Virus record (IMG/VR): IMGVR_UViG_3300009413_000010
Span: 1 to 51,539 of that record
DNA: 51,539 nucleotides
Direction: 5' to 3' (one strand)
Source: a virus
The notes beneath the pieces were generated by a model, which was given only the letters and a program-made list of their open reading frames with translations, had not been told where the DNA came from and did no database searches. The position numbers and the translations under genes are program-made. The stretch's first letter is position 1; every line of letters starts with the position of its first letter. Below, one piece after another: positions 1-48,651 of the stretch.

Positions 1-3000
1 AAATCGAATACCCGACCCTACGGTATTAGTATCGTTATTGAGTATGATAAATCCAGAGTCAATCGTTACAGATTTATTATTACCGGTACTCCCAGTAGAA
101 TTAAGAAAACTTCCACTGGTAGCAGTAATAGCTCCAGTAAGAGTTACATCTGTGGCAGTTATTAATCCAGTGCCAGCGGCAATATTTAATTTCACAGTAC
201 CATCTGCTGCATACCCCACAATACCTCCTGCACTACTGATTATAAGACCGTTTTGGTCTGTACCACTACCGTCATTAACTGTAGGACTAGTTTTAATCAG
301 ACCATCACTACCTGTTAAAGTTATTGTATGTGAGTTTAATGAACCGGTTTTAATAGCCTCAGCAGTTATAGCATTAGCTGCAATAACATCAGCAGTAATA
401 TTCTGTCCTTTACCGTGGAATGCTTGAATAGCTATTTCATCCAGTTCAGATACATCACCAGTACTACAAATAGCTAATAGTCCTCTAGAATCAGAGGTAG
501 CATCACTATAAGTAGTAGTACGTTCTATTTCAGCAGCATCAACATCAGTAAAATCCGACGTTTCAGTATTACCTGAATTAACTAATTTATAATATATATA
601 ATAAACAGTATTATCTACCGTACCTAAATCAAGTGAATTATTATATTCTAGAGCAATAGTCGTATTATCAGCAAAACTAATGGTTCCGCTTGTACTAGTC
701 CCAGCAACACCAGCAGTCGCATGAATATATCTTTGTTTATTAGCTGCAGAACTATTACCCACAAAAAGATTCATATTGGTTGTATATGGTTGTAAACTCT
801 TCTTAAATAAGGCTGCGGAAAAAGCATCCTCACCAGTTCCACTTTTACCACCAAACATTCCTGTGCCTGTACCATCAAAAATTAGGGTTGCCAAACCAGT
901 AGAAGTTTTCGCTGCCCTACAATGGCCTAAGATTATATAATCCATATCAGGATAAAAAGTAGTTACTCCAGATGTAACACCAGCTTGCTCTGTAAATACT
1001 TCAAATGTAAAAGCTCCATTAGAATCTGGTGTTTGATCTGGATCAAAAACAATTTTATGGAGATATGGAAAAGTTGTATTAGAATCCTCTGTGGTAACCA
1101 GACCACCACTATTACCGGCAACTATTTTATACCTCTTCATTCCTCCAATAATAAACTCCCCACCTGTCCATGCAATGGTAATTCTATCCGTAGGTGAGAA
1201 GGATGCTGTATCAGTAGTAGAAGTGGGTCTAAACGTCCAGCCCAACCCTCCCATAGGCACATTCGTAATTCTAGGATATTTCTGTGCCTCTCCTTCAATA
1301 GCGGTTACTATTGAATAGGTAGTACCAATCCCTATAGAATTAGTTCCAGCAGTATTAACTCCTGTACCTTTATACATAGTTAATTGCGCCCCAGCTTGTT
1401 CTGTATAGGTTATTTCCTGAACAAACATATATCCTTCAAAATTAACTAATATGTTGTTAACCCGTATATAATGTCCTGCTCTAACAGGAATATAAACTCT
1501 AATATCTCCGTCATAACCTGACCAACTTCCAGTATTTAATCCCCGTGCTGTCGTAACAGTTGCCCCACTAATAGTTGTTATATAACCATAAGCTGTTACA
1601 ACACCAGCAGAATTTACCTTAGCTATTGTCATTCCTATTCGTGCCCCATATAAATATGCATTATCATCCAATACTACAACAGTACCAGAAGTGATAGAAG
1701 CAACGCCAGTGGCAAGATAGGTAAACGGAGGAGGTAGCGTACTTACTACGCATTCAGTCCGTGTCAATTTAACTCTAGATAAAGATGACGCTATTCGTTC
1801 TCGTGCAGCATCCACATTTTTAATATCATTACCGGTAATTCTTAAAGGTCTATTTATTCCGTAGTTTACCTTGGGTCTACCAGTAGATGGAGTAAAGTCA
1901 AAATGTTGATTACCATTCGTTAAAGTAATCTCACTACTCCCGGTAGCAATGCTCTCAAACTCTTTTTTCTGTGTATTAATCGAAACATCACTAACTGTAT
2001 CTCTTTCAAAAGAAATAAGAATATACCCAGCACCAGAATTTGTGCTTTGATATTGTAGCCTACCTACTATAGGATGTCTATATATAGTATCATCGTCATC
2101 ATGTGCCACTGCTACTGAATAATCAGAATGAGTACTTCCCCATCCTCTAATAACTTCTATTTCAGTATTACTATTTACAGCAGTAACATACATATTTTCT
2201 GAGTTGCCGCCAGTAGTTATCATTATTATTTGACCAGTTTTAAAGGCAGCATCACCAGCAGTCCCGGTTTCCTCAATAGTTAGTGTTGTAACACTGTCAT
2301 TAATAGCACCATTTAGATTTGCAGTTGTATCTGTGTTCACCCCTAATTTCCATAGATAATCAGCGAACTTAAGGGCAGGAGTAGATACATCTCCAACTCG
2401 TGCGAATTTTTTCCCTTCCCATGCAGATGTACTAATAGTAGGATCGGCATGAATAAAAGCAGCACTAGGTGTACCTTCTAGAACCTCGAATTCAAGAGCA
2501 GTGTTATGATCAAAGGTTGCTCCATCAGCATCTTTAATATCACTTCTCAAAACTACAATTGCGCCGGTATACATATCGCTTGAGGGTTTATTAAAATCAT
2601 AATCTGGAAGCATGGGTACTTTAATACCTGTTTTTGTAAAAGCAACTACTGGATATTCAATTGTTAATCCTTTAAAATTAGATGCAGTACTTTCAAAAGT
2701 TGTTCTAGTCCCTCGTTTAAAATAGTTAAAGTCTGCTGCTGGATTATCTGATCCACCTGGATATTCAAATTGAGTATCTACATAATAATCATATCCAAAA
2801 TCTTTCACAGGACTAGAAGTTTCATGTGCATCATTGTTAGCTATTTCAGCTATAACTTTTAAGCCCTGTTTTCCCATAGAAGAAACATCAAATTTTGTTC
2901 CTGTAGATAATGTTTTTCCACTAGTCTCAAATTTTTGTGTGTCATTGGTAAGAATATTAGCTGTACTAATCATTAATGAAGAACTGTGTGGATCAGAAGC

Positions 3001-3441
3001 TGAATCACGGATTATTTTCTGAATCATTTCGCTTCTTGTATTAACAGTACTATCACTACTTATAAACTTCGTTTTATCGTCTGTAGGTATATCCGCTAAT
3101 TCAGCAAGATTATCCCTAGCATAGACTTTAATAACCTGTCCAAAAGCTTTATCATACTCTTGGTTAGATGAATATACTTTACCAGCAAAAAGCACTACTT
3201 TAGAATTACTTTCAATAATTCTTACAGGAGTAAAATCTGAAAACACGCCAGTTAATGGGCCATATCTATCAGAACCAGAACCAAAAGGCTCGGCAGATGG
3301 ATTCATTAACGTAATATTCGCAACTCTTGGATTGCCTAACTTATCAACAATATCTACTCTAATAGTCGCACTTACACTAGCATTAGTGTTTGCTTGTTCC
3401 CAAGAATCACCATCCCAATACTCAACTATAGATACTGCCAT
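1..3441 (-). CDS. tail-tip/baseplate protein with fibre-like C-terminus (3' end outside window)
   Basis: An open frame of 1,147 codons reads leftward from an ATG at 3441 to the window edge with no stop, so the C-terminus is missing. The first ~150 residues (start MAVSIVEYWDGDSW; later VYARDNLAELADI) resemble tail-hub or tail-associated lysin-type proteins that join tail tube to tip. The middle is beta-rich with many Thr/Ser/Gly. The last part (AITAEAIKTGSLNS, then LTGAITATSGSF) looks like the stalk of phage tail fibres. It follows the tape measure and the 191-aa tail protein, the usual place for the tail-tip protein of siphophages. The general role is fairly secure; the exact type (Tal, gpJ-like or hub plus fibre) is inference. 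Confidence 0.75.
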   Translation of the reverse strand, partial: MAVSIVEYWDGDSWEQANTNASVSATIRVDIVDKLGNPRVANITLMNPSAEPFGSGSDRYGPLTGVFSDFTPVRIIESNSKVVLFAGKVYSSNQEYDKAFGQVIKVYARDNLAELADIPTDDKTKFISSDSTVNTRSEMIQKIIRDSASDPHSSSLMISTANILTNDTQKFETSGKTLSTGTKFDVSSMGKQGLKVIAEIANNDAHETSSPVKDFGYDYYVDTQFEYPGGSDNPAADFNYFKRGTRTTFESTASNFKGLTIEYPVVAFTKTGIKVPMLPDYDFNKPSSDMYTGAIVVLRSDIKDADGATFDHNTALEFEVLEGTPSAAFIHADPTISTSAWEGKKFARVGDVSTPALKFADYLWKLGVNTDTTANLNGAINDSVTTLTIEETGTAGDAAFKTGQIIMITTGGNSENMYVTAVNSNTEIEVIRGWGSTHSDYSVAVAHDDDDTIYRHPIVGRLQYQSTNSGAGYILISFERDTVSDVSINTQKKEFESIATGSSEITLTNGNQHFDFTPSTGRPKVNYGINRPLRITGNDIKNVDAARERIASSLSRVKLTRTECVVSTLPPPFTYLATGVASITSGTVVVLDDNAYLYGARIGMTIAKVNSAGVVTAYGYITTISGATVTTARGLNTGSWSGYDGDIRVYIPVRAGHYIRVNNILVNFEGYMFVQEITYTEQAGAQLTMYKGTGVNTAGTNSIGIGTTYSIVTAIEGEAQKYPRITNVPMGGLGWTFRPTSTTDTASFSPTDRITIAWTGGEFIIGGMKRYKIVAGNSGGLVTTEDSNTTFPYLHKIVFDPDQTPDSNGAFTFEVFTEQAGVTSGVTTFYPDMDYIILGHCRAAKTSTGLATLIFDGTGTGMFGGKSGTGEDAFSAALFKKSLQPYTTNMNLFVGNSSAANKQRYIHATAGVAGTSTSGTISFADNTTIALEYNNSLDLGTVDNTVYYIYYKLVNSGNTETSDFTDVDAAEIERTTTYSDATSDSRGLLAICSTGDVSELDEIAIQAFHGKGQNITADVIAANAITAEAIKTGSLNSHTITLTGSDGLIKTSPTVNDGSGTDQNGLIISSAGGIVGYAADGTVKLNIAAGTGLITATDVTLTGAITATSGSFLNSTGSTGNNKSVTIDSGFIILNNDTNTVGSGIRF

Positions 3442-3443
3442 GA

Positions 3444-4019
3444 TTAACTATCCTTTCGGCTCGTCACAACAAACTGCATACTAAAAGTATATCTATCTTC
3501 TTTTGTTGCATCAACCTGTAATCTACACTGTTGTAATGCTACTTCATATACTGCTCCCCCTGTTGAATGGGTTGAAGACGCATAAACAGGAAAGGAAGCA
3601 TCTCCCCATTCTAACTCTAAGGGACTTTCCTCACTGTATATCTTTCCTGTTACAAAATCCTCTATCTTATTTTTATATGGTATAAAATATTTTTTAGCAG
3701 GAGTATCACTCTGAGTTCCATAACCTGATACTCTAGTATACGTGAATGAAGACATTCCTTCAAAACCCGAAGTAGTCTCAGAGGTATTTCCACCGATAGT
3801 ATCTATCACACCAGATAAACTGACAGATGGTCTATATACCCCAATATCAATCAATTGTGGTGATGATTGAGGGATAGGAATTTGAATAGGCGTTTTCGCA
3901 TAGCTAATAGACACATTGTCACATTTCAAAGCATATCCAAATAGAGTAGTAGTAGGAGTACTAGGTATATCTTCATGACTACATGTTCTTAATAATACTG
4001 AAATTTCTGGTTCGGCCAT
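3444..4019 (-). CDS. putative distal tail / minor tail protein (191 aa)
   Basis: A beta-rich protein lying between the tape measure and the tail-tip protein, where many siphophages encode the distal tail protein. Visible segments include a hydrophobic beta-strand-like middle (IDIGVYRPSVSLSGVID) and an acidic patch near LELEWGDASFPVY. The stop is two bases from the start of the next gene, so the two are co-transcribed. I recognise no diagnostic domain; the assignment rests on gene order and composition. Confidence 0.6.
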   Translation of the reverse strand: MAEPEISVLLRTCSHEDIPSTPTTTLFGYALKCDNVSISYAKTPIQIPIPQSSPQLIDIGVYRPSVSLSGVIDTIGGNTSETTSGFEGMSSFTYTRVSGYGTQSDTPAKKYFIPYKNKIEDFVTGKIYSEESPLELEWGDASFPVYASSTHSTGGAVYEVALQQCRLQVDATKEDRYTFSMQFVVTSRKDS

Positions 4020-4029
4020 TTCTTATCTC

Positions 4030-5553
4030 CTAAAGTTCATTGCCAAATTCATTTTCGATTCTTGCCCCTTCCGCAACCTTCACCTTCAGGTCATGAGTTA
4101 CTTGCTCTTGGGTAACCCCCGCAGCACTATTGTTATTTATAGTCAAGGCTACTGTAAGGTCTCCTCCAGCTACGGGGGGAGAGCCTGGAAGACCACCCCC
4201 ATTAATAGCTTGTACGGCTCCATTAGTTTTCTTACCTATCTGACTCGCTGCCAGAGTTCCTATAACATCTGTTGCTAACCCTAACCCAGACAAGCCAACA
4301 CCTGTTAATCCTGTAGCGATTACCGTCTTAGTTGCTAGTGCCCCTGCTTTTGCATATTCACCAGAAGCAACTGCTTTACTAACTTCATACGCTCCAAATC
4401 CTGCTGTAGCCACGGCTCCTACTACTGGAATAGCTTTAGTCAGTTTAGCAACTCCCCCTAGTGCAGTAAGAAGTTTACCTCCACCCAATACTTTACCTAT
4501 AGAACTTGCTAATACTTTAGGATTTTTAGCAGCAGTAACTAGTTTCGAGACACCACCAAGCATCTTTTCAAGTTTACCACCAATAAAGGGTAGTTTTCCT
4601 AATACTCCACCTAGACCCTTCATTATCAGCGAAATTAAACTTAAGGCTCCCTTATAAATAAGTTCCGGAAGTTTCTTTATAGGAGTTATTATCCTTCCAC
4701 CAAGACTCGTAAAGAAACCACTTACCGCCCCAATAGCTCTTACAAATATACCACCAAAAAAAGGAAACATCATTTTGATTAGCCCACTTGTCATCTTAAC
4801 TAAGAAACCCGGTATCTTAAATAGTAGTTTAAGCAAAAAGACCGGCAGCGTCACCAACCATTTTAATAATCTACCAGTTTGAGTAATAAAGAATGCTATA
4901 ATCCATCCTTTAACTCTTGTATCAGTTCCTTTAAACCACTCCCATATATCGACTATTTTTTGTCCTATAGAATCCCTTACATCTATAAGTGTCTCTCCAA
5001 GCCACGGAGAAGCCGTACTCTTCCACCAATCCCTAAACTTATCTGTTAAACCACCTATACCTTCTGGCCCAAGAAGCATCTCTAGACTTCCATCCCACGT
5101 AGACAAAAAGCCGTCGACCCACGCCCACACTGACTTCAGTACCTCAGAAATACCCGTTATTAGGGGAACAATCCAGTTCTGCATAAGCCGCTGCATTAAT
5201 GGAATTCCCTTAGCTAACCAACGTATTAGAGGCATAACCATAGGAAGCAAGGGAGCTAACATAACGTCAATTAATGCGCCAAGTAGCTGGAAGATAACAC
5301 CAATTGTGCTAGTGAATATCTGAGACTGCTTAAGCAAGGCTCCAACACCAAAGTTTAATCCTAGTTGACCTTTAACAAACTTCCCGACACCACCAAGCAG
5401 TTTCTTGAATATGGGAGTATCGACAGATGGTTTTTCTCCCTTGTCAGTATCTTTGGCAGCAGGTTTAGAACCGGTACCGGATGCGTCTGGGCCAGACCTG
5501 CCCCCGCCACCGTTCCATTTTAATAAAACGTCTACTTGTGTTGCTGCTGGCAT
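4030..5553 (-). CDS. tail tape measure protein (507 aa)
   Basis: It follows directly after the two tail-assembly chaperone frames, the standard position of the tape measure gene. The N-terminal ~50 residues are polar and glycine-rich. Residues ~50-450 are long amphipathic and hydrophobic helices rich in Leu, Gly and Lys (for example FKKLLGGVGKF and MLAPLLPMVMPLIRWLAKG), with TM-like stretches around residues 215-290. The family sets tail length at roughly 1.5 angstrom per residue, which would give a short tail of ~75 nm. That is short for the family; the 2,443-aa protein elsewhere in the window is the alternative candidate but lies far from the chaperones. Confidence 0.8.
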   Translation of the reverse strand: MPAATQVDVLLKWNGGGGRSGPDASGTGSKPAAKDTDKGEKPSVDTPIFKKLLGGVGKFVKGQLGLNFGVGALLKQSQIFTSTIGVIFQLLGALIDVMLAPLLPMVMPLIRWLAKGIPLMQRLMQNWIVPLITGISEVLKSVWAWVDGFLSTWDGSLEMLLGPEGIGGLTDKFRDWWKSTASPWLGETLIDVRDSIGQKIVDIWEWFKGTDTRVKGWIIAFFITQTGRLLKWLVTLPVFLLKLLFKIPGFLVKMTSGLIKMMFPFFGGIFVRAIGAVSGFFTSLGGRIITPIKKLPELIYKGALSLISLIMKGLGGVLGKLPFIGGKLEKMLGGVSKLVTAAKNPKVLASSIGKVLGGGKLLTALGGVAKLTKAIPVVGAVATAGFGAYEVSKAVASGEYAKAGALATKTVIATGLTGVGLSGLGLATDVIGTLAASQIGKKTNGAVQAINGGGLPGSPPVAGGDLTVALTINNNSAAGVTQEQVTHDLKVKVAEGARIENEFGNEL

Positions 5554-22400: not shown

Positions 22401-23808
22401 GGTCAATCTCTTTTAATCTAGCATCAAGAGCAGATTCAGGTTTAGCCTCAGTTACCACTGCTTCTTCTGCTTCTTCTTGTGCTGTTTTAACAGTTTTTGC
22501 AAGTGTTTCCTGTAAATATTGCCTATATTTCTCTTGGTCAAGCAAGCCATCCGTTTGAAGCCCTTTCATCTTTGCTATTTTACCGATTTGATTTCTATCA
22601 AACCCTTTAGCTACCAGTGCAGCCTCTAATTGAGTGGTATTAAGCTCCGCAATCTCCTCCAAAGTCTGGATTTGAGGAAGTGTAATATCTGCCTCCTCTT
22701 CATCCTCAGTCCCCTCTTGTCCACTAGCCACATCTAGAGGCTCAATATCCGTTGACTCTGATGTCGTGTGGTCAACAAGTTCTTCCGTAGCAGATTTAGG
22801 TTTAGCTTTCGTTGGTGTTTTCTTAGCATCCGTTCTCGGTTTAGTCTTTTTCTTAGGCGTAACTTCAGGTTGAGTAGACTCCTGCTCTGTAGGGGATGTG
22901 TCCGTATCCACCCTAGCTTGAGTTCCTACATCTAATAAATCATTATGATTATCTATATTTCCTATTTTATGAGGATAATAGAAAGGGTCTCCTTGTTTAC
23001 GGACAGAAGGGTCTACATTAATAGTAATATTACTCGTTGATCCTCTGGATTGGCCCTTCTCATTAATGCCATCAAGTTCTACATTATAACCATTGAGACG
23101 ATTTACTTTAAATAAGTCACCTTGTTCATTTCGTACAAGGCTTCCAAGCTTCAAATCAGTATTATACTTATTACCACTTTCCCATTTTATTGGGAATATA
23201 CTTTTTACCCCATCTTTTTTCTTAGATGTAACTTTCTCTGGAACATCAGATGTGGCGGTCTTAGGCTTAGCCGCAGGTTTAAACATGGCTGGATGCGATT
23301 TAGCCGTAGGTCGCTCCTCTCCAGCTATTCGTGCATCGTCACTTACTGCCATCCTATCTGGGATAATACTTGCTATATCCTTAAGACTTATTTCCAGAAT
23401 AGGTTTACCCGAAGAAGTCGCCATAGGTGGATGATCTTTACGAAGTTGCTCTATAACTGCGTTTGAATAGTTCCTGTCTAGAAGATATTGTAAAGCATCC
23501 TCGTGGAAATGTTGTGGTTCTTTCGCCTTTTCCAATAATATATCTGTATCAGGCGAAGCCTCCGGCAGGTTCACAAAAGCGGCAAGCTTATTTACAGCAG
23601 ACTGAGAGCCACCATTGTTGGAATATCCATTAGAAAAATGACCATTAGTCTTAACAAAACCCATCTCCAACGCTTCAGCATTATTTTCACTCTGTTGAAT
23701 ACGTTGTCGAGCCATATTCAAAACATATTCATCTTTGGATATTTTAGCTGGTGGAACGATATCTGGATCATCCATAAGACTATTATAAATGTCTGTAAGT
23801 CGCGACAT
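16477..23808 (-). CDS. giant hydrophilic coiled-coil protein (2,443 aa)
   Basis: One of the largest genes in the window (7.3 kb). The longer frame begins at 23853, but TTTAGGAGATACT just before ATG-TCG-CGA at 23808 marks the likely start (MSRLTDIYN). Almost no hydrophobic segments. Residues ~60-450 are low-complexity with Lys/Thr/Glu linkers; VVETP is repeated three times near residue ~790; from ~1,550 to ~2,090 there are long Gln/Glu/Lys/Ala helices. The C-terminus is basic and Arg-rich. It could be a virion-internal or ejected protein, or a very long tape-measure-like rod (~365 nm if fully helical at 1.5 angstrom per residue), yet it lies far from the tail chaperones. Function unknown. Confidence 0.8.
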   Translation of the reverse strand: MSRLTDIYNSLMDDPDIVPPAKISKDEYVLNMARQRIQQSENNAEALEMGFVKTNGHFSNGYSNNGGSQSAVNKLAAFVNLPEASPDTDILLEKAKEPQHFHEDALQYLLDRNYSNAVIEQLRKDHPPMATSSGKPILEISLKDIASIIPDRMAVSDDARIAGEERPTAKSHPAMFKPAAKPKTATSDVPEKVTSKKKDGVKSIFPIKWESGNKYNTDLKLGSLVRNEQGDLFKVNRLNGYNVELDGINEKGQSRGSTSNITINVDPSVRKQGDPFYYPHKIGNIDNHNDLLDVGTQARVDTDTSPTEQESTQPEVTPKKKTKPRTDAKKTPTKAKPKSATEELVDHTTSESTDIEPLDVASGQEGTEDEEEADITLPQIQTLEEIAELNTTQLEAALVAKGFDRNQIGKIAKMKGLQTDGLLDQEKYRQYLQETLAKTVKTAQEEAEEAVVTEAKPESALDARLKEIDPAYNKATVITRLSSLYGGGYRLSELEGMSDDELVARVKISSEDISHSRNDIEQVVSRQKSGDRRLRAAGYTQENITEMSDNMKNTLLNHLDENPTWKRGDIDAAIKREGVAAAAEGAAADAERAAAAESSAGEKTPATIEGPLEPEDPKKQLSDKAKEELSRTISDTGLEALLGKLGKGREQLFDPMGTPMLESKKNDKGKVIKGTWVDRDGNEYSKIKGKYIDSQGNEPKDGEYVGTVAQAQDYITHLKESGHPHHEHFSEIRNMDILDKDGKPTGEKVGQHIDIMEPELGTVINKPLVVETPVVETPVVETPEADADAKKAEESGDTPEPEVLEAAENISPEVEAIAKTLLKSGFAKRVACERGLTDKDGNPTEMGKAFFEQIGPMVNEAVDHFEKHKDTIATKFNRRRGMNFRDKEGNIVGIGNSGTFLNHLIDDMNKVAVAKGLPTLEKTHNDRTGEALTDNGVPVEPNQAPDLSVVNGEMVRNRLLTSRIGNDFSSDHGEFIAGLGGIQQIEQSILENKGMNPDTAKKITEEKLKEVKSGIESDEIKVADAGEKIHNSINETVATDYPDIAETPPDYGKQLPLFEDMGFEPMSTPEPTSAADAVAKKGVKARQRRANLDEEIHIPSKVSDQIKPLLAHLGHDVDAMTSSDVMNTFREVLTDPDKFGELEIALKENEEVRNQFVQAHVAMEQAEEEDPRLAHAGLPGFGAEVEDWGKIPDRAAEATQKIHERYRRKNLSPRKRQVEDLKNVMHGDFHEHLDNPDDMSDKEIKEMWNKEVRDPKARTASSASAGAKPTEKDKPNRTAALERLARLQNPDLIGDDDEVLDQDAMTRATTKLERHYDPSVGFTLKDITDAVKAQTNLVANQEAQQKQEKQNRARGVDQIRAVAEFEDNFPDPDKWAKEHDGEKMSPEMAKEHFRELIDFQHRKENFQHFDPKSGDPENFKALRERVHEYANLNPSAAREIAEEIKSAQRNGIDLGSDEFLAHAKELKETVERDERTAFAKANHKNEKLAHALENGNFSRGYDKDGNDGHRGLDHNGDPEHDTSEIKHEDAKAPLVHAVDENGYPDDKLQQLVNEIHDAELAIPKGDREHHEAESSLRAAHEAAKVDEHKKTTDAHTANTAGRDRNYDENDAKFDADIENSHQRQRDANYARVSGEGDRQKVLLDNHKKLINEAVDAHERQLAQHDGKIKKKQDEYNAYHQDIDKANKQHKKNVGDASADRMNAIYEAEQKAKKARSTANDQLNSILAEQIKQHNEEVEQHNQQGMDIVVNADASFADLAKQQTGQLANLRNKLSKTSEQFYQKQQDDSNVAAARGASPEYLGNLTQQHKQEAAEFDRGSQQQVADLHQSHQTEIEKHANNLGQEGKEWTQAGTDLLLNQAEERQKLTDDGHARMERIDAAVAHTDATARKTENDAINQSRDIRNKSLQEVADAAGLEAFIEDDGDATRFADQMRQEQSSHETDSAIIREQIQTDHGDYVESKRRGFKSEQGKMFAQATRAGDASNEEFEKEREGHIVRRQRENLYVTNDFEILRDKIDNLHGKLKRDAKKNFNVQKKRLGTDKKVSDQAALERKERAHATLDEYLKDDPEKLAAIKKNPQLGEHQDKVQQAHEEAGSGPTGEKDAKGEDKKPEKTRMVKDPKTEEMKKQYWIPGRGKGWVDEDTYRASHGQNAAAAKNNKLVIYPQGHFDAGHGQEGDEDYRPMSPPMAGHGANMFSIHTPDHPDAGLHDDELDHEGVMGSHLGNQPGITDHENFTANGAPFEVDLDSVGLRGMAEAAGKGKGQARDPESKREKIGRQFGGVEAQRRAGTGEFAAYGQAAKAVGRKFTGALDYVNSLRGEQGQRQSAVQQFASRMGSGDGGDIGQHVANALRGARQRGRKALGGVYSGGFAPKNERQAKAKVELWRRLPGFLREIYSLRNQEHARQLDHIRDIEDRNERKSSMDQWREWSKGIHSEIESRPKM

Positions 23809-24170: not shown

Positions 24171-24449
24171 TTAAACGCCAGTGTCATCAATAATTAATGG
24201 ATGATAGGAATCATAAGAAACTATACCTTTATATACATGAGAATCAGCGTATTCTACTGCGTCCTCTTCTGACAGCCCCTTATTATTAATAAGAAGTTCT
24301 GTATACTTAACATACGAGTATATTCCTAATGATGCCCCATATTGAGTTCTATAAATGCCGATTAAAGCATCATCCATATCCTCATACAGAATACCACCAT
24401 TTTCCTCGTCTGTCAAAACTTCTCTGATCCTACTACCTTTACTCATCAT
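24171..24449 (-). CDS. hypothetical protein (92 aa), first gene of the leftward late block
   Basis: Acidic alpha/beta protein (REVLTDEENGGILYEDMDDA). Preceded by AAAGGATAGATT and a late-type promoter at 24484-24479. Two ATG codons are adjacent, so the start could be three bases downstream. No family recognised. Confidence 0.55.
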   Translation of the reverse strand: MMSKGSRIREVLTDEENGGILYEDMDDALIGIYRTQYGASLGIYSYVKYTELLINNKGLSEEDAVEYADSHVYKGIVSYDSYHPLIIDDTGV

Positions 24450-24469
24450 AATCTATCCTTTCGCAAGAT

Positions 24470-24492
24470 TCTTACTACATTATACTCTTCAA
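24470..24492 (-). promoter_or_regulatory. late-type promoter opening the leftward late block
   Basis: The minus strand reads GAGTATAATGTAGTAAG with TATAAT at 24484-24479. It lies 30-35 bases before the ATG at 24449, at the edge of the divergent non-coding region. Confidence 0.5.
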
Positions 24493-24606
24493 ATAGGGTT
24501 TTATTTTATAATTACAAAAATTTAGCTAGGACGTTTTGAAAAAATAGTCTTGGTAAATAGTACCCTAGATTAATGGTTACCTACAAGGAAACATAATAGT
24601 ATAACC

Positions 24607-24652
24607 GGGGGGTCTATATAAAGGAACAAGCTAACTTTTTAAGACACCCCCC
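24607..24652. other. G-tract/C-tract inverted repeat
   Basis: GGGGGGTCT at 24607 and AGACACCCCCC ending at 24652 can pair with a two-base bulge, with a ~27-base A/T-rich loop between. It could be a terminator-like or barrier structure between the late block and the repeat array. There is no clear U-run. Confidence 0.4.
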
Positions 24653-24679
24653 TTCATCGTAATAGATTATAATATATTA

Positions 24680-24795
24680 TTAAACGAATAAGTTTTTTAG
24701 TTATTTAATTAGTTACTTACTTATTATTAATTAGTTAGTTATTAGTTAGAAAGAAATAATTATTAGTTGAAACTATAACTAGTTAAAGTTATTTA
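24680..24795. repeat. AT-rich TTAGTTA short-repeat tract
   Basis: About 110 bases almost free of G and C, built from irregular repeats of TTAGTTA, TTAATTAG and TTATTAG. Such tracts often mark DNA-unwinding elements at replication origins; here it adjoins the tandem array in the divergent region. The origin role is inference. Confidence 0.45.
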
Positions 24796-24845
24796 ATCGT
24801 CTAGACCCACGGGGGTATATTTACAGGCTTGAGTCAGTTTTAGAG

Positions 24846-26245
24846 GTTGACTTGAAACCAGTTCACCCCCACCCCCTTCAAGAGGGTGTTGTGGACAGGG
24901 AGCCTGTGGAGGGTCAGGGCCAGCTAGAGAGCCTAGCCTAGAGGTGCTGCTGGCAGAGTGAGGGCTGACTAGCCTGTCAGGTAGAGGTGTCAGGCAGGTA
25001 GCTAGGCTGCTGTGGGTGTGCTGTGTAGGGTGTGTAGGCAGTGTGTAGAGCATGTAGACAGAGTGTAGAGCCTTGAGTGCAGAGTGTGGTGTGTAGAGGT
25101 GTCTGTGAGGCTGCTGAGAGGCAGGGCAGTGAAACCGAAATAGCTAAGATAAGACGAGTCTAGGCCAAGTTGACAAGAGCTAGGAGCTTGGTGTACACTG
25201 TAGAGATTAAGCTATGTCAGCTACAAGTAAGTAGGCTAGTGACTAGTGGACACAGGAGATGTGGGTGTAGGCGTGTACATCTACAGCAGGGTCACGGTCA
25301 CAGACATCAGGGTCTCAGTGTGTAGAGACTGAGGCTGACTGTCTAGCTAGGTGGACACAGAGGCTAGCTGTCAGGTGGTCAGGCATGGTCGTCTAGAGCG
25401 TCAACTTGAAACCGAAATAGAGTTAGTAAAGATAAGAACAGCCCAGCGTAGGACTAGCTACAGGAGGGTACAGGAGCCTGAGAGCTATCTACAGATAGCC
25501 TAGAGAGTGGCTAGGACGAGCTACAGAGACTACAGAGATCGGTGGGAGCTAGACAGATAGCCAGAGGTCACTAGAGAGTCTAGGCACAGGAGGTAGAGAG
25601 TCTAGAGCCTAGCAAGCTAGATAGCTAGAGAGTCTAGGAGCATGGTGACCAGAGTGTACAAGAGATGTCAGCTAGAGTGACTGACTTGAAATGAAATAGG
25701 ATTAACTAGCTATGTATATAAGGTAAGGTAATAGATAAGTTAAGTAAAGTCTAGGCTAGATAACTAGTTATAGAGACTAGAGACAGACTAGGATAAGATG
25801 TAGAGACCACAGGGATCAGAGAATAAGTATGTACATAGACAGAATTTTACTAGAGTATATAAGTAAGAGGTGTGGAGAGTGTAGACTAAGCAGCTAGACA
25901 AGTAGCTAAGAGACTAGACACACCATGTCCAGTAAGCATGGTGGTGGTGCTGAGAGGGCTGGACTTGAAACGAAATGAGATTAACTATCTATATATATAA
26001 GTTAAAGTAATAAGTAAACTACGTAAAATCTAGACTATAGAACTAGTTATAAAGATTCGTAAAAGCTTAGTACAGGCTACAGAAGTTGCAGGAATCAGAA
26101 GAGTTAAACAGGTTAGTAAAATCTATTAGAAGGTTTAAGTAAGAGCAACACAAAGATGTAGGATGCAGCAGCTAAATAAGTAAACTACATCTAGAAATAT
26201 ACTAATCTGTGTGATCAGACAGGCTCAGTTAGAGAGGTTGATTTG
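24846..26245. repeat. diverged tandem array, about five units of ~275 bp
   Basis: A motif close to TTGAAACCGAAATAG recurs near 24850, 25132, 25405, 25685, 25965 and (partial) 26233, a spacing of about 270-285 bp. The units at 25685 and 25965 align along much of their length (shared GATTAACTA, TATATATAAG, CTAGTTATA, GGAATCAG). Earlier units share mainly the head motif. All frames are closed by frequent TAG codons, so the array is non-coding. GC content falls strongly from the first unit to the last, and CTAG and TAG are extremely frequent. Function unknown: origin iterons, packaging site or repeated RNA are all possible. Confidence 0.65.
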
Positions 26246-26271
26246 AAACGGTATAAAGAAAGGATACCCTG

Positions 26272-26604
26272 ATGACAACTGATATATCTAAACAGGATAG
26301 AGACGCTACAGCCAGCGCTGTATACTGTATAGAAACTAACAAAAATATAGATCGTTTAGTACATGACATGCTACATTCATGTAAAACAGTAGAAGAATAT
26401 ACTGAAAAACTTAGTGGCTTACTTAAAATATTTTGGGGAAAAACTACGCCAGAAAAAAAGAATCTGGATGATGTAAACTGGCTAGAAGTAATGGTACAGA
26501 TAATACCAACAAAATGCTTGATATCTATATTTAAACAATCTATATTAAAACTAGAAGGAAAGGAAAACGACAATGAAGAAACAGAAAACCCATGTGGCAG
26601 ATAA
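26272..26604 (+). CDS. hypothetical early protein (110 aa)
   Basis: First rightward gene after the array, preceded by AAAGGATACCCTG. Predicted mostly helical; NWLEVMVQIIPTKCLISIF is hydrophobic. Its last 32 bases overlap the next gene. AT-rich like the following genes. Function not recognised. Confidence 0.6.
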   Translation: MTTDISKQDRDATASAVYCIETNKNIDRLVHDMLHSCKTVEEYTEKLSGLLKIFWGKTTPEKKNLDDVNWLEVMVQIIPTKCLISIFKQSILKLEGKENDNEETENPCGR

Positions 26605-26863
26605 AAAACAATATAAATATTATTTAATTAATGAAATAGAAAGTTTACAAAATGAAAACACTAAACTATTAAAACAACTAAATATCTTACAAACAAAATA
26701 TAACAAAATTATAGAGGTACAAGAAACAGAAGATTGTTATACATGTGTATGTGGACAAGTAGCGCAATGTAATTGTAAACATTTAGGATATTTAAAACAG
26801 AGGCTAATTCTAATTGATACAGAAAAACTTGATAGTATGTGGAGCATTGAAAATGAAATGTAA
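26573..26863 (+). CDS. hypothetical coiled-coil protein with Cys cluster (96 aa)
   Basis: Basic start, then a heptad helix (INEIESLQNENTKLLKQL), followed by a Cys cluster (CYTCVCGQVAQCNCKH) that may bind metal. Ribosome site AAGGAAAACGAC. Overlaps both neighbours by tens of bases, so translation is coupled. No family recognised. Confidence 0.6.
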   Translation: MKKQKTHVADKKQYKYYLINEIESLQNENTKLLKQLNILQTKYNKIIEVQETEDCYTCVCGQVAQCNCKHLGYLKQRLILIDTEKLDSMWSIENEM

Positions 26864-27041
26864 TAAATGTAATGAAGAAATATTAAACAATTGGGCGATA
26901 ACTTTAAAACGAGTTTTTAATTCAAATGGAACAGAAGATTTTATAGCTTATCATTCAATATGCAACCCGAAAAATACAGCAAAACCAAATTGGTTAAAAC
27001 AACTATATTTTTTGATACGTTACGGTGGAGATTTGAAATAG
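26853..27041 (+). CDS. small zinc-ribbon-like protein (62 aa)
   Basis: The ATG at 26853 overlaps the previous gene's end and gives MKCNKCNEEILNNW, with an N-terminal CxxC and a later HSIC. This is the usual form of short phage zinc-binding proteins, so I prefer it to an upstream ATG at 26814. Function unknown. Confidence 0.55.
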   Translation: MKCNKCNEEILNNWAITLKRVFNSNGTEDFIAYHSICNPKNTAKPNWLKQLYFLIRYGGDLK

Positions 27042-27043
27042 TA

Positions 27044-27106
27044 ATGAAAGCTGAAAATTTAGTAAAAGAAATAACAAAAATAGTATTAAAAGCTGGGCTG
27101 GAGTGA
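27044..27106 (+). CDS. possible 20-aa peptide
   Basis: MKAENLVKEITKIVLKAGLE, a short amphipathic helix, starts three bases after the preceding stop with no clear ribosome site of its own. It could be translated by reinitiation. Weakly supported. Confidence 0.25.
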   Translation: MKAENLVKEITKIVLKAGLE

Positions 27107-27112
27107 AATAAA

Positions 27113-27187
27113 ATGGTAGAAATATTATTAACAGGAATCTTTATTGGATCAATAGGATTAATAGTTTGGAGTATACTAACAGACTGA
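27113..27187 (+). CDS. possible 24-aa single-span membrane peptide
   Basis: MVEILLTGIFIGSIGLIVW followed by SILTD would span a membrane once. It continues the same compact rightward series, six bases after the previous small frame. TGGAGTGAAATAAA upstream offers a plausible ribosome site. Small toxins or lysis regulators look like this, but no family is recognised. Confidence 0.35.
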   Translation: MVEILLTGIFIGSIGLIVWSILTD

Positions 27188-27245
27188 AATGAAATAACCT
27201 AGTCAGAAACGGTTAGAATATTTTATATACTTATTTATATATATT

Positions 27246-27268
27246 TAGACATAATAATTATCAACTCC
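27246..27268. promoter_or_regulatory. operator-like palindromic site (single)
   Basis: TTAGACATAATAATTATCAA followed by CTCC lies ~20 bases upstream of the first rightward promoter of this region. It matches the right-hand element of the cassettes at 27.9, 28.4 and 29.0 kb. Confidence 0.55.
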
Positions 27269-27288
27269 CAAAATCTTCATAGAGGCTA

Positions 27289-27316
27289 TTGACACTACAT
27301 GTCATTCTGCTATACT
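27289..27316 (+). promoter_or_regulatory. sigma70-type promoter (TTGACA, 16 nt, TATACT)
   Basis: TTGACA at 27289-27294 and TATACT at 27311-27316. An operator-like site lies just upstream. Transcription would start near 27324. Confidence 0.7.
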
Positions 27317-27354
27317 CCTTGTGTAGGGGATGACACCTCTAACATTACAAAGGA

Positions 27355-27368
27355 CAGCCGAAAGGCTG
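27355..27368 (+). other. leader hairpin with GAAA tetraloop
   Basis: CAGCC-GAAA-GGCTG forms a five-bp stem with a GNRA loop ~30 bases after the transcription start and 12 bases before the chosen ATG. Its position in the leader supports the start at 27381. It may protect the 5' end of the mRNA. Confidence 0.5.
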
Positions 27369-27380
27369 AGAGTGAACAAA

Positions 27381-27725
27381 ATGGGATTTTGGGATAACAT
27401 CACCCTCCTGCGAGCTAACGTCGTCGAAGGAAAAAGTGCAATAGCTAACGATAGCGCTGACCAAGTAGATCGAAATGTCGATAAGACTCAGGACGATATC
27501 ATTAGGGCGGAATTTGAAGCATCAGTCAGGAATCTACCCAAAGATAAAATCTCGGATTCAAACGGAAATTGCGAAACTTGTGGCTCATATGCTGAGGGAT
27601 TAGGAAATGGAATTTGTGCCAAGTGTTGGGATTATGTGGTAAACTTCTCATCCGCTAACAGCAAAATTTGGCCTGATGCCACCCAGTACGAAACCATTTA
27701 CCAAGCGAGGTTAAACCTAGGCTAG
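27381..27725 (+). CDS. early zinc-ribbon protein (114 aa)
   Basis: The frame is open from 27330, but the promoter and the GAAA hairpin put that ATG in the leader; MGFWDNITLLRANV at 27381 is the likelier start. Residues ~65-85 carry CETC, then CAKC (CxxC, 12 residues, CxxC), a zinc ribbon. The N-terminal FWDNI resembles the 157-aa protein read leftward from 30357 (MSSFWDNILKS). Single-gene unit with its own promoter. Function unknown. Confidence 0.65.
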   Translation: MGFWDNITLLRANVVEGKSAIANDSADQVDRNVDKTQDDIIRAEFEASVRNLPKDKISDSNGNCETCGSYAEGLGNGICAKCWDYVVNFSSANSKIWPDATQYETIYQARLNLG

Positions 27726-27762: not shown

Positions 27763-27905
27763 GGGATTGACAAAAAACTAGACTTGATAGAATTATCAAC
27801 TCTCGTTCCTTCCACGTTCCTTTCCTTCCACGTTCCTTTCCTTCCACCTTCCTTTCCCTTTCCTGCTCTCTCTATATATTAGACATAATAATTATCAACT
27901 CCCGT
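27763..27905. promoter_or_regulatory. regulatory cassette 1: palindrome, TTCC tract, palindrome
   Basis: CTTGATAGAATTATCAACTC at ~27783 is followed by ~75 bases of pyrimidine-rich TTCC repeats (27803-27875) with a repeated TTCCACGTTCC, and then by TTAGACATAATAATTATCAA at ~27886. A TTGACA promoter follows 30 bases later. This order recurs three more times. Confidence 0.6.
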
Positions 27906-28855: not shown

Positions 28856-29000
28856 CACTTGACAAAAGTGAGTTGATAAACTTATCAAGTCTCTTTCCAT
28901 TCCTGATTCCCTTCCTTCCTTTCCTGTTCCCTTCCTCTATGGGAGAGGAGGGTAGACATGATAAGAATATATCCCTCTCTATATAAAAGCTATCATGTCT
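28856..29000. promoter_or_regulatory. regulatory cassette 3
   Basis: GAGTTGATAA-AC-TTATCAAGTC (28870 on) is a nearly perfect inverted repeat. It is followed by a TTCC-rich tract (28893-28935), then AGACATGATA (28953 on) and, 29 bases later, TATCATGTCT. The gap between the last two halves is larger than in the other cassettes. No rightward promoter or gene follows; the next gene is convergent. Confidence 0.55.
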
Positions 29001-31026: not shown

Positions 31027-31212
31027 CTATACTTGTAGGACTCTATCCAATGCTTTGAACACTCTTACACTAGGTACTGTAAAATACCGACTAGAGTATC
31101 GCTCTGCTGTCCAAAGCATTCTGTCATACCTACTGACTTTGAATGCTCTACTCATATGCCAATACTCTAGCAGTTCCCCCTCATCAATATCACTACCATT
31201 CACATACAGCAT
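31027..31212 (-). CDS. small hypothetical protein (61 aa)
   Basis: Acidic start (GSDIDEGELLEYW), then a basic, aromatic C-terminal half. Preceded by GAAGGAGTTGTT and the promoter at 31273-31244. Single-gene unit. Function unknown. Confidence 0.55.
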   Translation of the reverse strand: MLYVNGSDIDEGELLEYWHMSRAFKVSRYDRMLWTAERYSSRYFTVPSVRVFKALDRVLQV

Positions 31213-31243
31213 AACAACTCCTTCGTTTTTTCACTTCCTCAAA

Positions 31244-31273
31244 AGTATAACATGAAAACGAAACTATTGTCAA
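31244..31273 (-). promoter_or_regulatory. early promoter (TTGACA, 18 nt, TATACT)
   Basis: GGGATTTGACA with TATACT at 31249-31244, followed by TTTGAGGAAGTGAAAAAACG. Confidence 0.75.
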
Positions 31274-38744: not shown

Positions 38745-39070
38745 TAGTCTCTAGCCTCATAATCATAATCATCTAAATCTGGTTCTTCTACATAATTTTT
38801 CCACACTCTGTTCTTAGGGATTGAAGCTATTCTATTCTGTCTATATGTTTCCAAAACAGTATCCCATATTTCCTGTTCAGTTACAGTACGCCCAATTTTC
38901 TTTTCTAATCGTTTCCAAACTTTCAGAAGTTTCTTTTCCTTTCTCCTAGTTTCAAGCATATTAAATTCTCCATCACAAGCAAGATTTTCCGGCGATAATT
39001 TATTACACAACTCTTCAAACTGTGCTAGATATTTTGATTCGATAATCAACTTGTTCTTTACTGCAATCAT
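38744..39070 (-). CDS. hypothetical charged protein (108 aa)
   Basis: AAGGAG lies ~11 bases before the ATG at 39070 (MIAVKNKLIIESK). A longer frame from 39142 would overlap the Mom-like gene by over 120 bases and lacks a site. Helical, Lys/Glu-rich, acidic end (EEPDLDDYDYEARD). Function unknown. Confidence 0.55.
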   Translation of the reverse strand: MIAVKNKLIIESKYLAQFEELCNKLSPENLACDGEFNMLETRRKEKKLLKVWKRLEKKIGRTVTEQEIWDTVLETYRQNRIASIPKNRVWKNYVEEPDLDDYDYEARD

Positions 39071-39680
39071 AATACGTATACTCCTTATTATCTTTTTTAG
39101 GATAGACTTTTGGAAGCCACTTCGTTTGAAGAGTCTTGTCAAAAACTAATAAATATCTATGTTTTCTTGGTCGGTGTCTCCATTCTCCTTTACTACCTTT
39201 TACCTTGCCTCTAGTATGTTTAAGAAAAGTGCCATCCTCTTGTTCAAACCACCAATCGCTTTTAGGGTCTGTGAGTCCATAATACATAAAGTTTAAAGAT
39301 TGATATATATACCCTGCGTGGTAGCGAGAATCTGCATAGCTAAGAATAGCTCTAACGTCCAGTTCCTTACGTACCTCTTTCATAGCCATTGCTACAAATT
39401 GAGACAGTATTAAACTGCCGTTGGCAGACGGATGTTTTACTAATCGCCCAAGTTCAAGTATACCACGTTGATCGGTTCGTGTCAAACCGAAGCACCCCTT
39501 CACCAACTCAGGAACAGAAGGATTATGAAATATACAGACAGCCTGTAAAACATCATCAATGAATGCACCATAATTATAGCCTGTCCTAAAACCTTTGCTT
39601 TCCTTTGTCAAATAATGATAGGGATGAAGTAATGATTCTGCTTCCTTCTTTGTTATCTTTCTAACTATAGGCTTACACAT
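39015..39680 (-). CDS. Mom-like GNAT-fold protein, putative DNA modification (221 aa)
   Basis: Motifs in order: LGRLVKHPSANGSLILSQF (77-95), SYADSRYHAGYIYQSLNF (114-131) and RKHRYL (172-177). This pattern is that of phage GNAT-fold proteins related to Mu Mom, which modifies adenine in phage DNA to evade restriction. The Ser-Tyr-x-Asp and Arg-Lys-His-Arg segments are the typical conserved sites. No partner modification gene is seen nearby. Overlaps both neighbours. The family call is fairly good; activity is inference. Confidence 0.6.
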   Translation of the reverse strand: MCKPIVRKITKKEAESLLHPYHYLTKESKGFRTGYNYGAFIDDVLQAVCIFHNPSVPELVKGCFGLTRTDQRGILELGRLVKHPSANGSLILSQFVAMAMKEVRKELDVRAILSYADSRYHAGYIYQSLNFMYYGLTDPKSDWWFEQEDGTFLKHTRGKVKGSKGEWRHRPRKHRYLLVFDKTLQTKWLPKVYPKKDNKEYTYYDCSKEQVDYRIKISSTV

Positions 39681-47028: not shown

Positions 47029-48651
47029 TTAATTTCTTTTTATTGCTTCAGCAATTTTCTTCCTTTGGGAATCCCCAACACTTCCTTCTTTAAAATTGCT
47101 ATGTCCCTGCTTTTTAGCTTGGGAAGTAGCTATCGCAAACGGATTATTCTCCGCTTTAAATAAATCCATATAGTTTAGAAATTGTTTAGTTATACTTATC
47201 TCTGGTGAATACCATGGATGATCAGATTCTGCTGCAGCCTTTCTAGCCTTAGCTGCTGCAGACTTATGATAATCAGGAGAGTCTTCATCTAACTTATCTC
47301 CTAGTTCTTGACCAGCTTCATTAACTGTCCATGGAGGTTTATGATTTATTGGTATTCCCCAATCATTAGTTTCCACTTCTACAACAGGTGTATACCTCAT
47401 TCCTTCAAGGGGTTGCTCCGAAGGAAAACCATATTCTCTTAGTAGTTGATGATGTTCCGCATCTCGTGCAGCATAGTTATGTAAGGTATTGAAAGATTTG
47501 CCATTATTCAAGGGGTCTTTATCTGCTTTAGCTAATATATCTGTAAAGACAGATATAGTATCATGACCAACTACAATACATGCACAATCCTCAGATTTTT
47601 GTAATTCCTGCCATTTACCAAATGATTTAATAAAATCTATGTTTCCTTTTTTATTTTCCATAAGTACTATCTCCAATACATTAAGTTTATTTCCTACGCT
47701 AGATGTTGGATCACCTCCTTCAGAAGATAAATTAGGACTATACAATTTACACCAATCCTCAGAATGTATATCACCCATGACCAATTCACACGTTCCAACC
47801 TCATCCTCAGCGGTTCGTATAAAATACTGACATGATTCACATTTAATACCAACCTCTAATTCTGGTGGAGTGGCTTGTCGTAATCCTGCTTCTACGGGAC
47901 TGAGTTGACCATCACGTTTCTCCAGTTTAATCAAACAACTTCCATCAATACAAGAACCTTGTGGTGTAGACAGACTCTTTAATAAGTCAAACCCAGCCCC
48001 CTGATTGACTCCCTTTTCACATACAGTTACTTCTGCAAGTTCCATTTCATCTACTTGCATATAAGGCATTAAGCCTTTCTGCATGTTTTGAGTCTTAGTG
48101 GCTGATCCAGCAATAGAATAACTTTTAAGCTTACCGTCATTTATTTGATCTATAACTCTTTGCGCTATACGAGTGTCATCTCTGATTTCACAAATAAAAT
48201 ATAGTCCTTTATCGTCTACACCAGACTTAAAAATCTGTCCACCTTTACTTATATAAGCTGGTAATGCCCAACCTACTTGAACATCACTATGGAGTACCAT
48301 AGCATTACGAGTACGAAAGTTAGCCATATAGCGTTTAAAGGCCCGTTCCAAAGCATCGGTTGTTATCATATGACCTTCTCTATCAATTAATTCTACAGAG
48401 GCTGGGCCACCGATAACTAATGGTTCAGAAATATTAAATTCTTGAGCAGCTTCTGTATATTCAGGAGCATCGGGAAAGGCACGAGAGAGTGTTAAAACCT
48501 CAGCTTTAGAAGCTATTCCAGCTTTCCACAATTTTTGATATTCCTCTAATGCACCTTGAATATCCTCAACAGTAGTTCTACCGTTTTGAGCTTTTTCTAA
48601 TAGCATTATTTCAGCATCATCTGATGCCCATGAATAGAGATCAATACTCAT
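47029..48651 (-). CDS. XkdF-like prohead protease with C-terminal extension (540 aa)
   Basis: Residues ~75-225 match the XkdF-type prohead protease fold: VELIDREGHMITTDALERAF, H121 in VLHSDVQVGW, S179 in KSYSIAG and the acidic MELAEVTVCEKGVN. H and S are the catalytic residues. Residues ~270-305 carry CESC, then C288 and C301 (WCKLYSP), a Cys cluster common in unnamed phage proteins. The last ~60 residues contain NPFAIATSQAKKQG. It lies downstream of the capsid gene, the reverse of the usual order. Confidence 0.75.
   Translation of the reverse strand: MSIDLYSWASDDAEIMLLEKAQNGRTTVEDIQGALEEYQKLWKAGIASKAEVLTLSRAFPDAPEYTEAAQEFNISEPLVIGGPASVELIDREGHMITTDALERAFKRYMANFRTRNAMVLHSDVQVGWALPAYISKGGQIFKSGVDDKGLYFICEIRDDTRIAQRVIDQINDGKLKSYSIAGSATKTQNMQKGLMPYMQVDEMELAEVTVCEKGVNQGAGFDLLKSLSTPQGSCIDGSCLIKLEKRDGQLSPVEAGLRQATPPELEVGIKCESCQYFIRTAEDEVGTCELVMGDIHSEDWCKLYSPNLSSEGGDPTSSVGNKLNVLEIVLMENKKGNIDFIKSFGKWQELQKSEDCACIVVGHDTISVFTDILAKADKDPLNNGKSFNTLHNYAARDAEHHQLLREYGFPSEQPLEGMRYTPVVEVETNDWGIPINHKPPWTVNEAGQELGDKLDEDSPDYHKSAAAKARKAAAESDHPWYSPEISITKQFLNYMDLFKAENNPFAIATSQAKKQGHSNFKEGSVGDSQRKKIAEAIKRN

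Follow-up and report, generated by a model that had tools for sequence, protein, structure and literature searches.

A CTAG-rich, satellite-like tandem array at a divergent gene junction of a marine tailed phage: a candidate replication-origin region

To our knowledge, few replication origins have been mapped outside the model phages, and sequence comparison fails on elements that turn over quickly. Satellite DNA with higher-order repeats is built from tandem units of nearly constant length. Among described phage origins, T4 oriF and oriG each pair a middle promoter with an A+T-rich element downstream of it, and R-loop formation at these sites is independent of specific sequences; the minimal origins are ~100 bp, with the middle-mode promoter upstream (PMC3016281). 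The origin of the PLE phage satellite contains iterons in a non-coding region (PMC7145576).

The locus described here shares features with each of these systems. As at T4 oriF/oriG (PMC3016281), a candidate A+T-rich unwinding element is found in a phage that encodes its own helicase and primase; unlike at those origins, the element here is followed by a 1.4-kb tandemly repeated G-rich tract, and the phage-controlled promoter that a T4-type origin requires directly upstream was not found in a sigma-70-type scan of the plus strand from 24450 to 25169 (promoters of other types may be present). As in PLE, the region is non-coding and carries several types of repeat, and in PLE it is needed for replication; however, the PLE iterons are short, semi-palindromic and bound by RepA, whereas the units of our array are ~278 bp and have no known initiator (PMC7145576 for PLE). 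With regard to DnaA-box origins, CTAG-rich repeats at a divergent junction are shared with one unrelated contig (L151, described below), whereas the array lacks a DnaA-box cluster. The likeness to higher-order satellite DNA lies in the near-constant unit length, the similarity of neighbors on the right-hand side and the internal short-word simplicity; the array differs in having only five units, in residing in a phage genome and in ending at a gene leader. It qualifies as a tandem repeat array, but we do not class it with the iteron, DnaA or T4-type origins, and it would work like the T4 or PLE origins at most by analogy.

The window, that is, the whole stretch of 51,539 nucleotides that was analyzed, is a linear IMG/VR record (IMGVR_UViG_3300009413_000010). 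The array lies between a leftward gene block that ends at 24449 and rightward small genes that start at 26272, the position that an earlier note on this DNA had given it; we infer the labels 'late' and 'early' for these blocks from their gene content. The features are as follows:

24171 to 24449, minus strand: gene that closes the leftward block, 92 aa, phrog_13182 match (E 2.3e-8)
24653 to 24803, no strand: AT-rich stretch, candidate DNA unwinding element, the least stable 150 bp of the window
24824 to 24866, plus strand: boundary element ahead of unit 1, from a repeat family search
24852 to 25128, plus strand: unit 1 (u1), 277 bp, GC 0.58, G 40%
25129 to 25405, plus strand: unit 2 (u2), 277 bp, GC 0.50
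25406 to 25685, plus strand: unit 3 (u3), 280 bp, GC 0.49, the most CTAG of the units (12)
25686 to 25964, plus strand: unit 4 (u4), 279 bp, GC 0.38
25965 to 26242, plus strand: unit 5 (u5), 278 bp, GC 0.32
26215 to 26258, plus strand: sixth boundary/head, immediately upstream of the first rightward gene (26272)
26272 to 26604, plus strand: small gene of 110 aa that opens the rightward series, with neither a PHROG match nor an above-cut-off Pfam match
47029 to 48651, strand not given: head protease
From 50679, strand not given: major capsid protein (MCP), matches SU10_MCP

The earlier note had described a head recurring every ~270–285 bp; we find six heads (starting TTGAAA or GTGAAA, 'TTGAAAC'-type) at 24852, 25129, 25406, 25686, 25965 and 26243, and the steps between them (277, 277, 280, 279 and 278 bp) bound five units. 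Shared 8-mers recur in the ~278-bp register 39 times, compared with 2.7 ± 2.2 in per-unit dinucleotide shuffles, so the recurrence holds, and the head-to-tail homologous units with a constant period of 277–280 bp are those of a satellite-like tandem array. Out-of-register 8-mer repeats are also high (167 vs 70.5 ± 13.5 in shuffles); the composition of the array is therefore due in part to the simplicity of its short words. When each head is scored with a weight matrix made from the others, three of the six outscore every other of the 103,020 sites in the window; for the remaining three, the sites scoring as high number 3 (24852), 11 (25406) and 1 (25686). The single 15-mer TTGAAACCGAAATAG at ≤3 mismatches gives four matches where 1.96 are expected, and 14 of 100 shuffles reach four, which is within chance; the significance of the array is in the wider head motif and its spacing, not in the short 15-mer. 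The two ends of the array are also alike: a 25-nt core before u1 (24834–24858) agrees with 26225–26249 at 22 of 25 positions.

Pairwise local alignment gives the highest z-scores to right-hand neighbors (u4–u5, 15.6; u3–u4, 9.1), followed by u2–u3 (4.0), u3–u5 (3.8) and u1–u3 (3.2); the weaker pairs are u2–u5 (2.3), u2–u4 (2.0), u1–u2 (0.8), u1–u4 (0.3) and u1–u5 (−0.4). The unit closest to u5 is u4, with an ungapped 147-nt block of 73% identity. Homology is therefore strong for u4–u5 and u3–u4 and weak for u2–u3, with the interior of u1 weakly similar to u3; u1 probably belongs to the array, mainly on the basis of its flanking heads and its length. The earlier proposal that the last two units align over most of their length thus stands, but its companion, that older units align only at the head, fails for u3–u4; chance heads with unrelated spacers are not what the alignments give, since homology held for u3–u5, although u1 is at best weakly like u3. 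Two further assemblies of the same virus match the segment 24451–26271 at 100% identity, so the array is not a one-off assembly error.

The array appears to be non-coding, as had been proposed: all six frames contain stops, and no gene model explains the region. The largest ORF mainly inside it (86 aa, minus strand, 24793–25053) has no Pfam match. A protein-coding model was rejected, given the stops in six frames and the lack of family matches for any ORF. Decoding TAG as an amino acid is no help, because TAA and TGA are also present in every frame. The earlier suggestion of a repeated RNA is not supported in the form of a structured RNA: a search of 24450–27400 with the covariance models of Rfam 15 gives no match at E ≤ 1, and the fold z-scores of u1–u5 against shuffles are 1.66, −2.11, −0.18, −0.31 and −0.46, that is, only u2 folds modestly better than its shuffles (3 of 200). 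A CRISPR array was also rejected: CRISPR repeats are ~21–48 bp with spacers of ~30–40 bp, whereas here ~278 bp separate one head from the next, and the intervening sequences are themselves related in u3–u5.

In composition, the array is unusual satellite-like, CTAG-rich and CpG-poor DNA for a phage. CTAG occurs 37 times in 1390 bp of array, ~8-fold more than the 4.6 expected from base content, and remains in excess against per-unit dinucleotide shuffles (20.6 ± 3.6); an excess of TAG disappears against the same shuffles (70 vs 68.2). CpG is ~5-fold poor (observed/expected 0.20, compared with 0.64 for the whole window), and u1 has none where 20 are expected. In 500-nt windows the CTAG observed/expected ratio peaks at 13.7, which tops all 753 non-coding-like control windows from 139 of 172 other loci, a set that includes loci retrieved by the CTAG pattern, one duplicate (L177 is the contig of L145) and overlapping loci. 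The next peaks (11.7, 11.2, 10.9 and 9.4) are all in contigs retrieved by the CTAG pattern; the best among contigs found otherwise is 6.3, in the relative G025. None of the 16 contigs of relatives (two of them the same virus) exceeds 17 CTAG/kb, compared with 34 here, except G001, which is the same virus and bears the array. The steep fall in GC from the first unit to the last, reported earlier, is confirmed, and purine content is nearly constant from u1 to u5 (.60,.60,.66,.66 and.62). Because polarized changes in u5 run mainly from GC to AT (33 vs 17, of 55), the gradient may be decay of the right-hand units; A-to-G hypermutation was rejected as its source, since the right-hand units look AT-drifted and the left-hand ones do not look hypermutated.

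By nearest-neighbor energies, duplex stability in the window is lowest in a 100-bp segment from 24666 and a 150-bp segment from 24653, between the leftward block and u1; on predicted stability, 24653–24803 is a candidate A+T-rich unwinding element of the T4 oriF/oriG type, and it contains a degenerate (TTAG)n run at 24697–24749. Immediately to the right, the window maximum of |G−C|/length begins at 24880 for both 300 and 500 bp and at 24882 for 1000 bp, with G over C; G reaches 0.41 in the top 300 bp, compared with 0.35 (C) and 0.33 (G) at the next two places listed. The only R-loop-forming-type sequence of the window on either strand lies at 24898 on the plus strand, with its initiation-type G cluster in u1 (QmRLFS-type rules, which score the sequence propensity for the lasting RNA–DNA hybrid that primes synthesis at a T4-type origin). 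Shuffles in 1-kb blocks yield such a sequence on the plus strand in 1 of 100 cases and on the minus strand in 4 of 100.

GC skew in the window tracks gene direction, so an origin call from cumulative skew is uninformative. The nearest plus-strand sigma-70-like match is at 25170, in u2 and past the start of the R-loop-type sequence; a sigma-70 promoter-like site also occurs at 27289. DnaA boxes (≤1 mismatch) number 64 in the window, where 66.6 are expected, with one site in the array (25713), so a DnaA-dependent origin was rejected. Nor does the array match an iteron-type origin, in which clustered short direct repeats bind an initiator next to AT-rich DNA: the unit is ~278 bp and is accompanied only by the degenerate TTAG run and short low-scoring tandem runs.

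The searches made recover the array in two other assemblies of the same virus, both near-identical, and nowhere else. A pattern of three spaced heads retrieves six viral contigs, of which two are the same virus and four have no resemblance beyond the pattern. By blastn, 24451–26271 matches 4 of 35 records, two of them the same virus and the others short and weak (G018, 29 nt at E 0.0015, and G015, 23 nt at E 0.0076), and 24450–27400 has no match in the phage collection. Searches with single proteins (24171, 26272, 16477 and 32103), a method that reaches close relatives only, return no contigs but those of the same virus; the 24171 protein has one further weak match in the 35 records (G025, E 0.003, 33%). 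No such array is described in the titles and abstract openings of the literature consulted, a narrow sample and weak evidence of absence.

A CTAG-word pattern retrieves 36 loci, two of them from this virus. In 30 of the other 34, an open frame spans 120 codons or more within a stretch of at most ~830 nt; the remaining four are L145, L151, L165 and L176. On reading, L145 and L151 prove non-coding and rich in CTAG, a richness that is not independent evidence because CTAG words retrieved them. In L151 (contig 3300029913_001436), CTAG-rich tandem repeats at 3900–4270 occupy a divergent junction, and DnaA-type boxes at 4240, 4251 and 4262 are spaced in 11-bp steps, the outer two perfect; the total of such boxes is near chance (7 vs 5.6), and the clustering alone is notable. 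This region is a possible origin of an unrelated virus. In L145 (1540–2090; L177:4400–6200, contig 3300031898_000018), the CTAG-rich non-coding DNA lies in a ~1.7-kb gap between divergent gene blocks. A separate 19-mer, GGATATATCCCCCTCCCCC, is present in two to three copies per contig in the relatives G008, G024, G025 and G026 (L096, L112, L126 and L180); its 10 exact copies, in 4 of 196 loci, are intergenic where read (G008, G024 and G025), and it may be a shared regulatory repeat. Its last 18 bases, at ≤3 mismatches, are absent from the window.

The R-loop scan was extended to 15 other contigs (600,032 bases, including G003, which is the same virus, and the overlapping pair G014/G015), where matches are confined to G014 (three neighboring places) and G009 (one); the 13 contigs with no match comprise one same-virus contig that is missing the array region and mostly fragments that may miss the region. 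The wider family loci (1,605,911 bases, overlaps counted twice) give the same two places, and a looser threshold, applied to five contigs, adds one match, on the minus strand of G008. The 64.7-kb relative G025, complete or partial, has no R-loop-forming-type sequence.

The early regions of G014 and G009 contain G-rich, apparently non-coding tracts that are unrelated in sequence to the array (no blastn match to either contig at E 0.01), and each tract is the top-ranked G-over-C 300 bp of its own contig. In G009, the top-ranked 300 bp begin inside the preceding gene; the tract holds eleven GGAAGGGG words at 31065–31271 (~210 bp; L098:11060–11280) in non-coding DNA after the last gene, and is followed by AT-rich DNA with the second least stable segment of the contig (31405). 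The same word occurs at twelve other places in the G009 contig, and also ahead of the gene at 10565. In G014, read over 80,000 of 81,555 bases, the tract is a run of G-clusters ahead of a TTGACA-bearing stretch and rightward genes. It may be coding, since it overlaps a 126-aa minus-strand ORF and one frame stays open across almost the entire 300 nt that were tested; it is also 5.7 kb from the least stable segment of that contig (16927–17077), which is near the late/early junction, where no comparable array is found.

We read 24450–26271 as the divergent control region and putative replication-origin region of a marine tailed phage, with a probability of roughly 40%. The reading starts from observed anatomy, composition and periodicity, from a region with no recognizable genes and from replication genes in the same virus. 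To the right of the candidate AT-rich unwinding element (24653–24803), a non-coding G-over-C tract would have grown and diverged as five ~278-bp tandem units that end at the leader of the first rightward gene; the repeats would be a satellite-like way to build a G-skewed tract. Rightward transcription from near the AT-rich stretch would produce a G-rich RNA prone to remain hybridized to its template as an R-loop; together with the easily melted stretch, the R-loop would open the duplex and provide the phage's DnaB-type helicase, DnaG-type primase and family A DNA polymerase with a primer or a place to load. Transcription through the array, R-loop formation, unwinding, priming and initiation are thus predicted from sequence.

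The origin is favored because the least stable segment adjoins the array, which has the top G-over-C and the only R-loop-forming-type sequence of the window, because DnaB, DnaG, DNA polymerase A and a sigma factor are among the gene products of the virus, because G014 and G009 hold R-loop-type tracts that are also the top-ranked G-over-C stretches of their contigs, in apparently non-coding DNA of the early region, and because the CTAG-rich divergent region of the unrelated L151 holds clustered DnaA-type boxes. It is weakened because the scan finds no sigma-70-like promoter upstream and no DnaA-box enrichment, because the G014 tract may be coding and is distant from the least stable segment, because G025 lacks an R-loop-type sequence and skew gives no independent origin signal, and because intergenic DNA is often AT-rich. 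The constant period and the CTAG excess are left unexplained. Of the functions that the earlier note had offered, the origin thus gains circumstantial support from stability, skew and R-loop propensity, with a replication start at this locus being a prediction.

The main and serious rival is a weakly constrained, satellite-like spacer, which we consider possible but on the doubtful side: a 278-bp segment of the early-gene leader would have multiplied by tandem duplication, and slippage during replication together with unequal exchange would have reshaped the copies, with the composition a by-product of slippage in CTAGAG, GTGTAG and AGAG. The out-of-register 8-mer excess is the cryptic simplicity that slippage would leave, right-hand neighbors are the most alike with similarity fading leftward, and the first rightward gene has the last head as its leader; furthermore, the junction of the related G014 lacks a comparable array, and more low-complexity repeats lie close by at 24697, 27806 and 28895. 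However, we know of few phage genomes that keep 1.4 kb of idle DNA, the unit length holds within 3 bp despite the divergence in sequence, and slippage alone does not predict a G-skew extreme beside a melting extreme. A long non-coding leader or early regulatory RNA, made by rightward transcription that enters the early operon and acting as a decoy or antisense RNA with no structure, is decidedly unlikely: the plus strand shares its purine richness with the rightward genes downstream, and the array runs directly into the leader of gene 26272, but the folds are no clearer than shuffles apart from the modest u2, there is neither an Rfam match nor an upstream promoter in the scans, and the palindromic CTAG points to duplex DNA and not to RNA.

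Less probable still are sites for a regulator or sigma factor, in which the TGAAAC of the heads would serve as −35-like elements ~278 bp apart in an early/late switch. A sigma-70 region 2 protein is among the products of the virus, all units have the heads in common, and the TGAAAC of the heads resembles what we take to be the −35 elements of ECF sigma factors; in u4 and u5, TATATAAG occurs ~30 bp past the head start and may be compared with ATATATAAG in the leaders of 6188 and 15362. Yet no second hexamer is conserved at a fixed distance across the six heads, and the leaders of 6188, 15362, 24171 and 43484 have AGTATAAT in common instead. A packaging, partition or recombination site would fit repeated non-coding DNA at a unique place, but is highly improbable: the identified head genes are ~21 kb or more away, a position that also tells against the packaging site that the earlier note had listed, and no partition or integrase gene was found among the proteins scanned, a set that leaves out many small ORFs; no terminase was identified.

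A broader version of the origin reading, which we regard as rather unlikely, is that some related marine phages have a non-coding, repetitive G-over-C tract in or near the early region that functions through composition, not sequence, as a transcription-opened origin. The sequence of the tract would turn over freely while G-skew and an unwinding element were kept, and the tract would take the form of a CTAG-rich, CpG-poor 278-bp satellite here, of GGAAGGGG words in G009 and of G-clusters in G014. If G-skew beside an unwinding element does mark an origin, sequence alone would suffice to predict the origins of many uncultured phages.

Overlapping contigs of the same virus are at least 99.9% identical to the window over the main overlaps and add genes for DNA polymerase A, DnaG, DnaB, dCMP deaminase, a sigma-70 region 2 protein and ThyX. 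They also encode an unusual-looking fusion of a eukaryote-type topoisomerase I, a poly(A)-polymerase/tRNA-nucleotidyltransferase and an HD domain in one ORF:

L130 (contig 3300025270_001022, same virus), 15 to 3374, plus strand: 1119-aa topoisomerase I fusion ORF

Patterns made from the MCP match viral contigs in 362 stretches, of which 353 encode a relative (80 kept), whereas a scan of species genomes gives 46 pattern matches and no relatives. In the phage collection, nine records match the MCP (27–31%); because all are viruses of archaea, an archaeal link is suggested. The sigma-70-type promoters, DnaB, DnaG, PolA and the sigma factor suggest a bacterial host, and for this deep-sea tailed phage a bacterial host appears likelier than an archaeal one.

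Several further observations concern the window itself. In the sister contig G001, 33 bp replaces 153 bp (window 22696–22848) of a 2458-aa gene. Short TTCC-type tandem repeats lie between small genes at 27806–27857 and 28895–28936, and one same-virus contig ends at window position 28892. A Mom-like DNA modification protein is encoded at 39015–39680, and GATC is depleted in the window (88 vs 154 expected).
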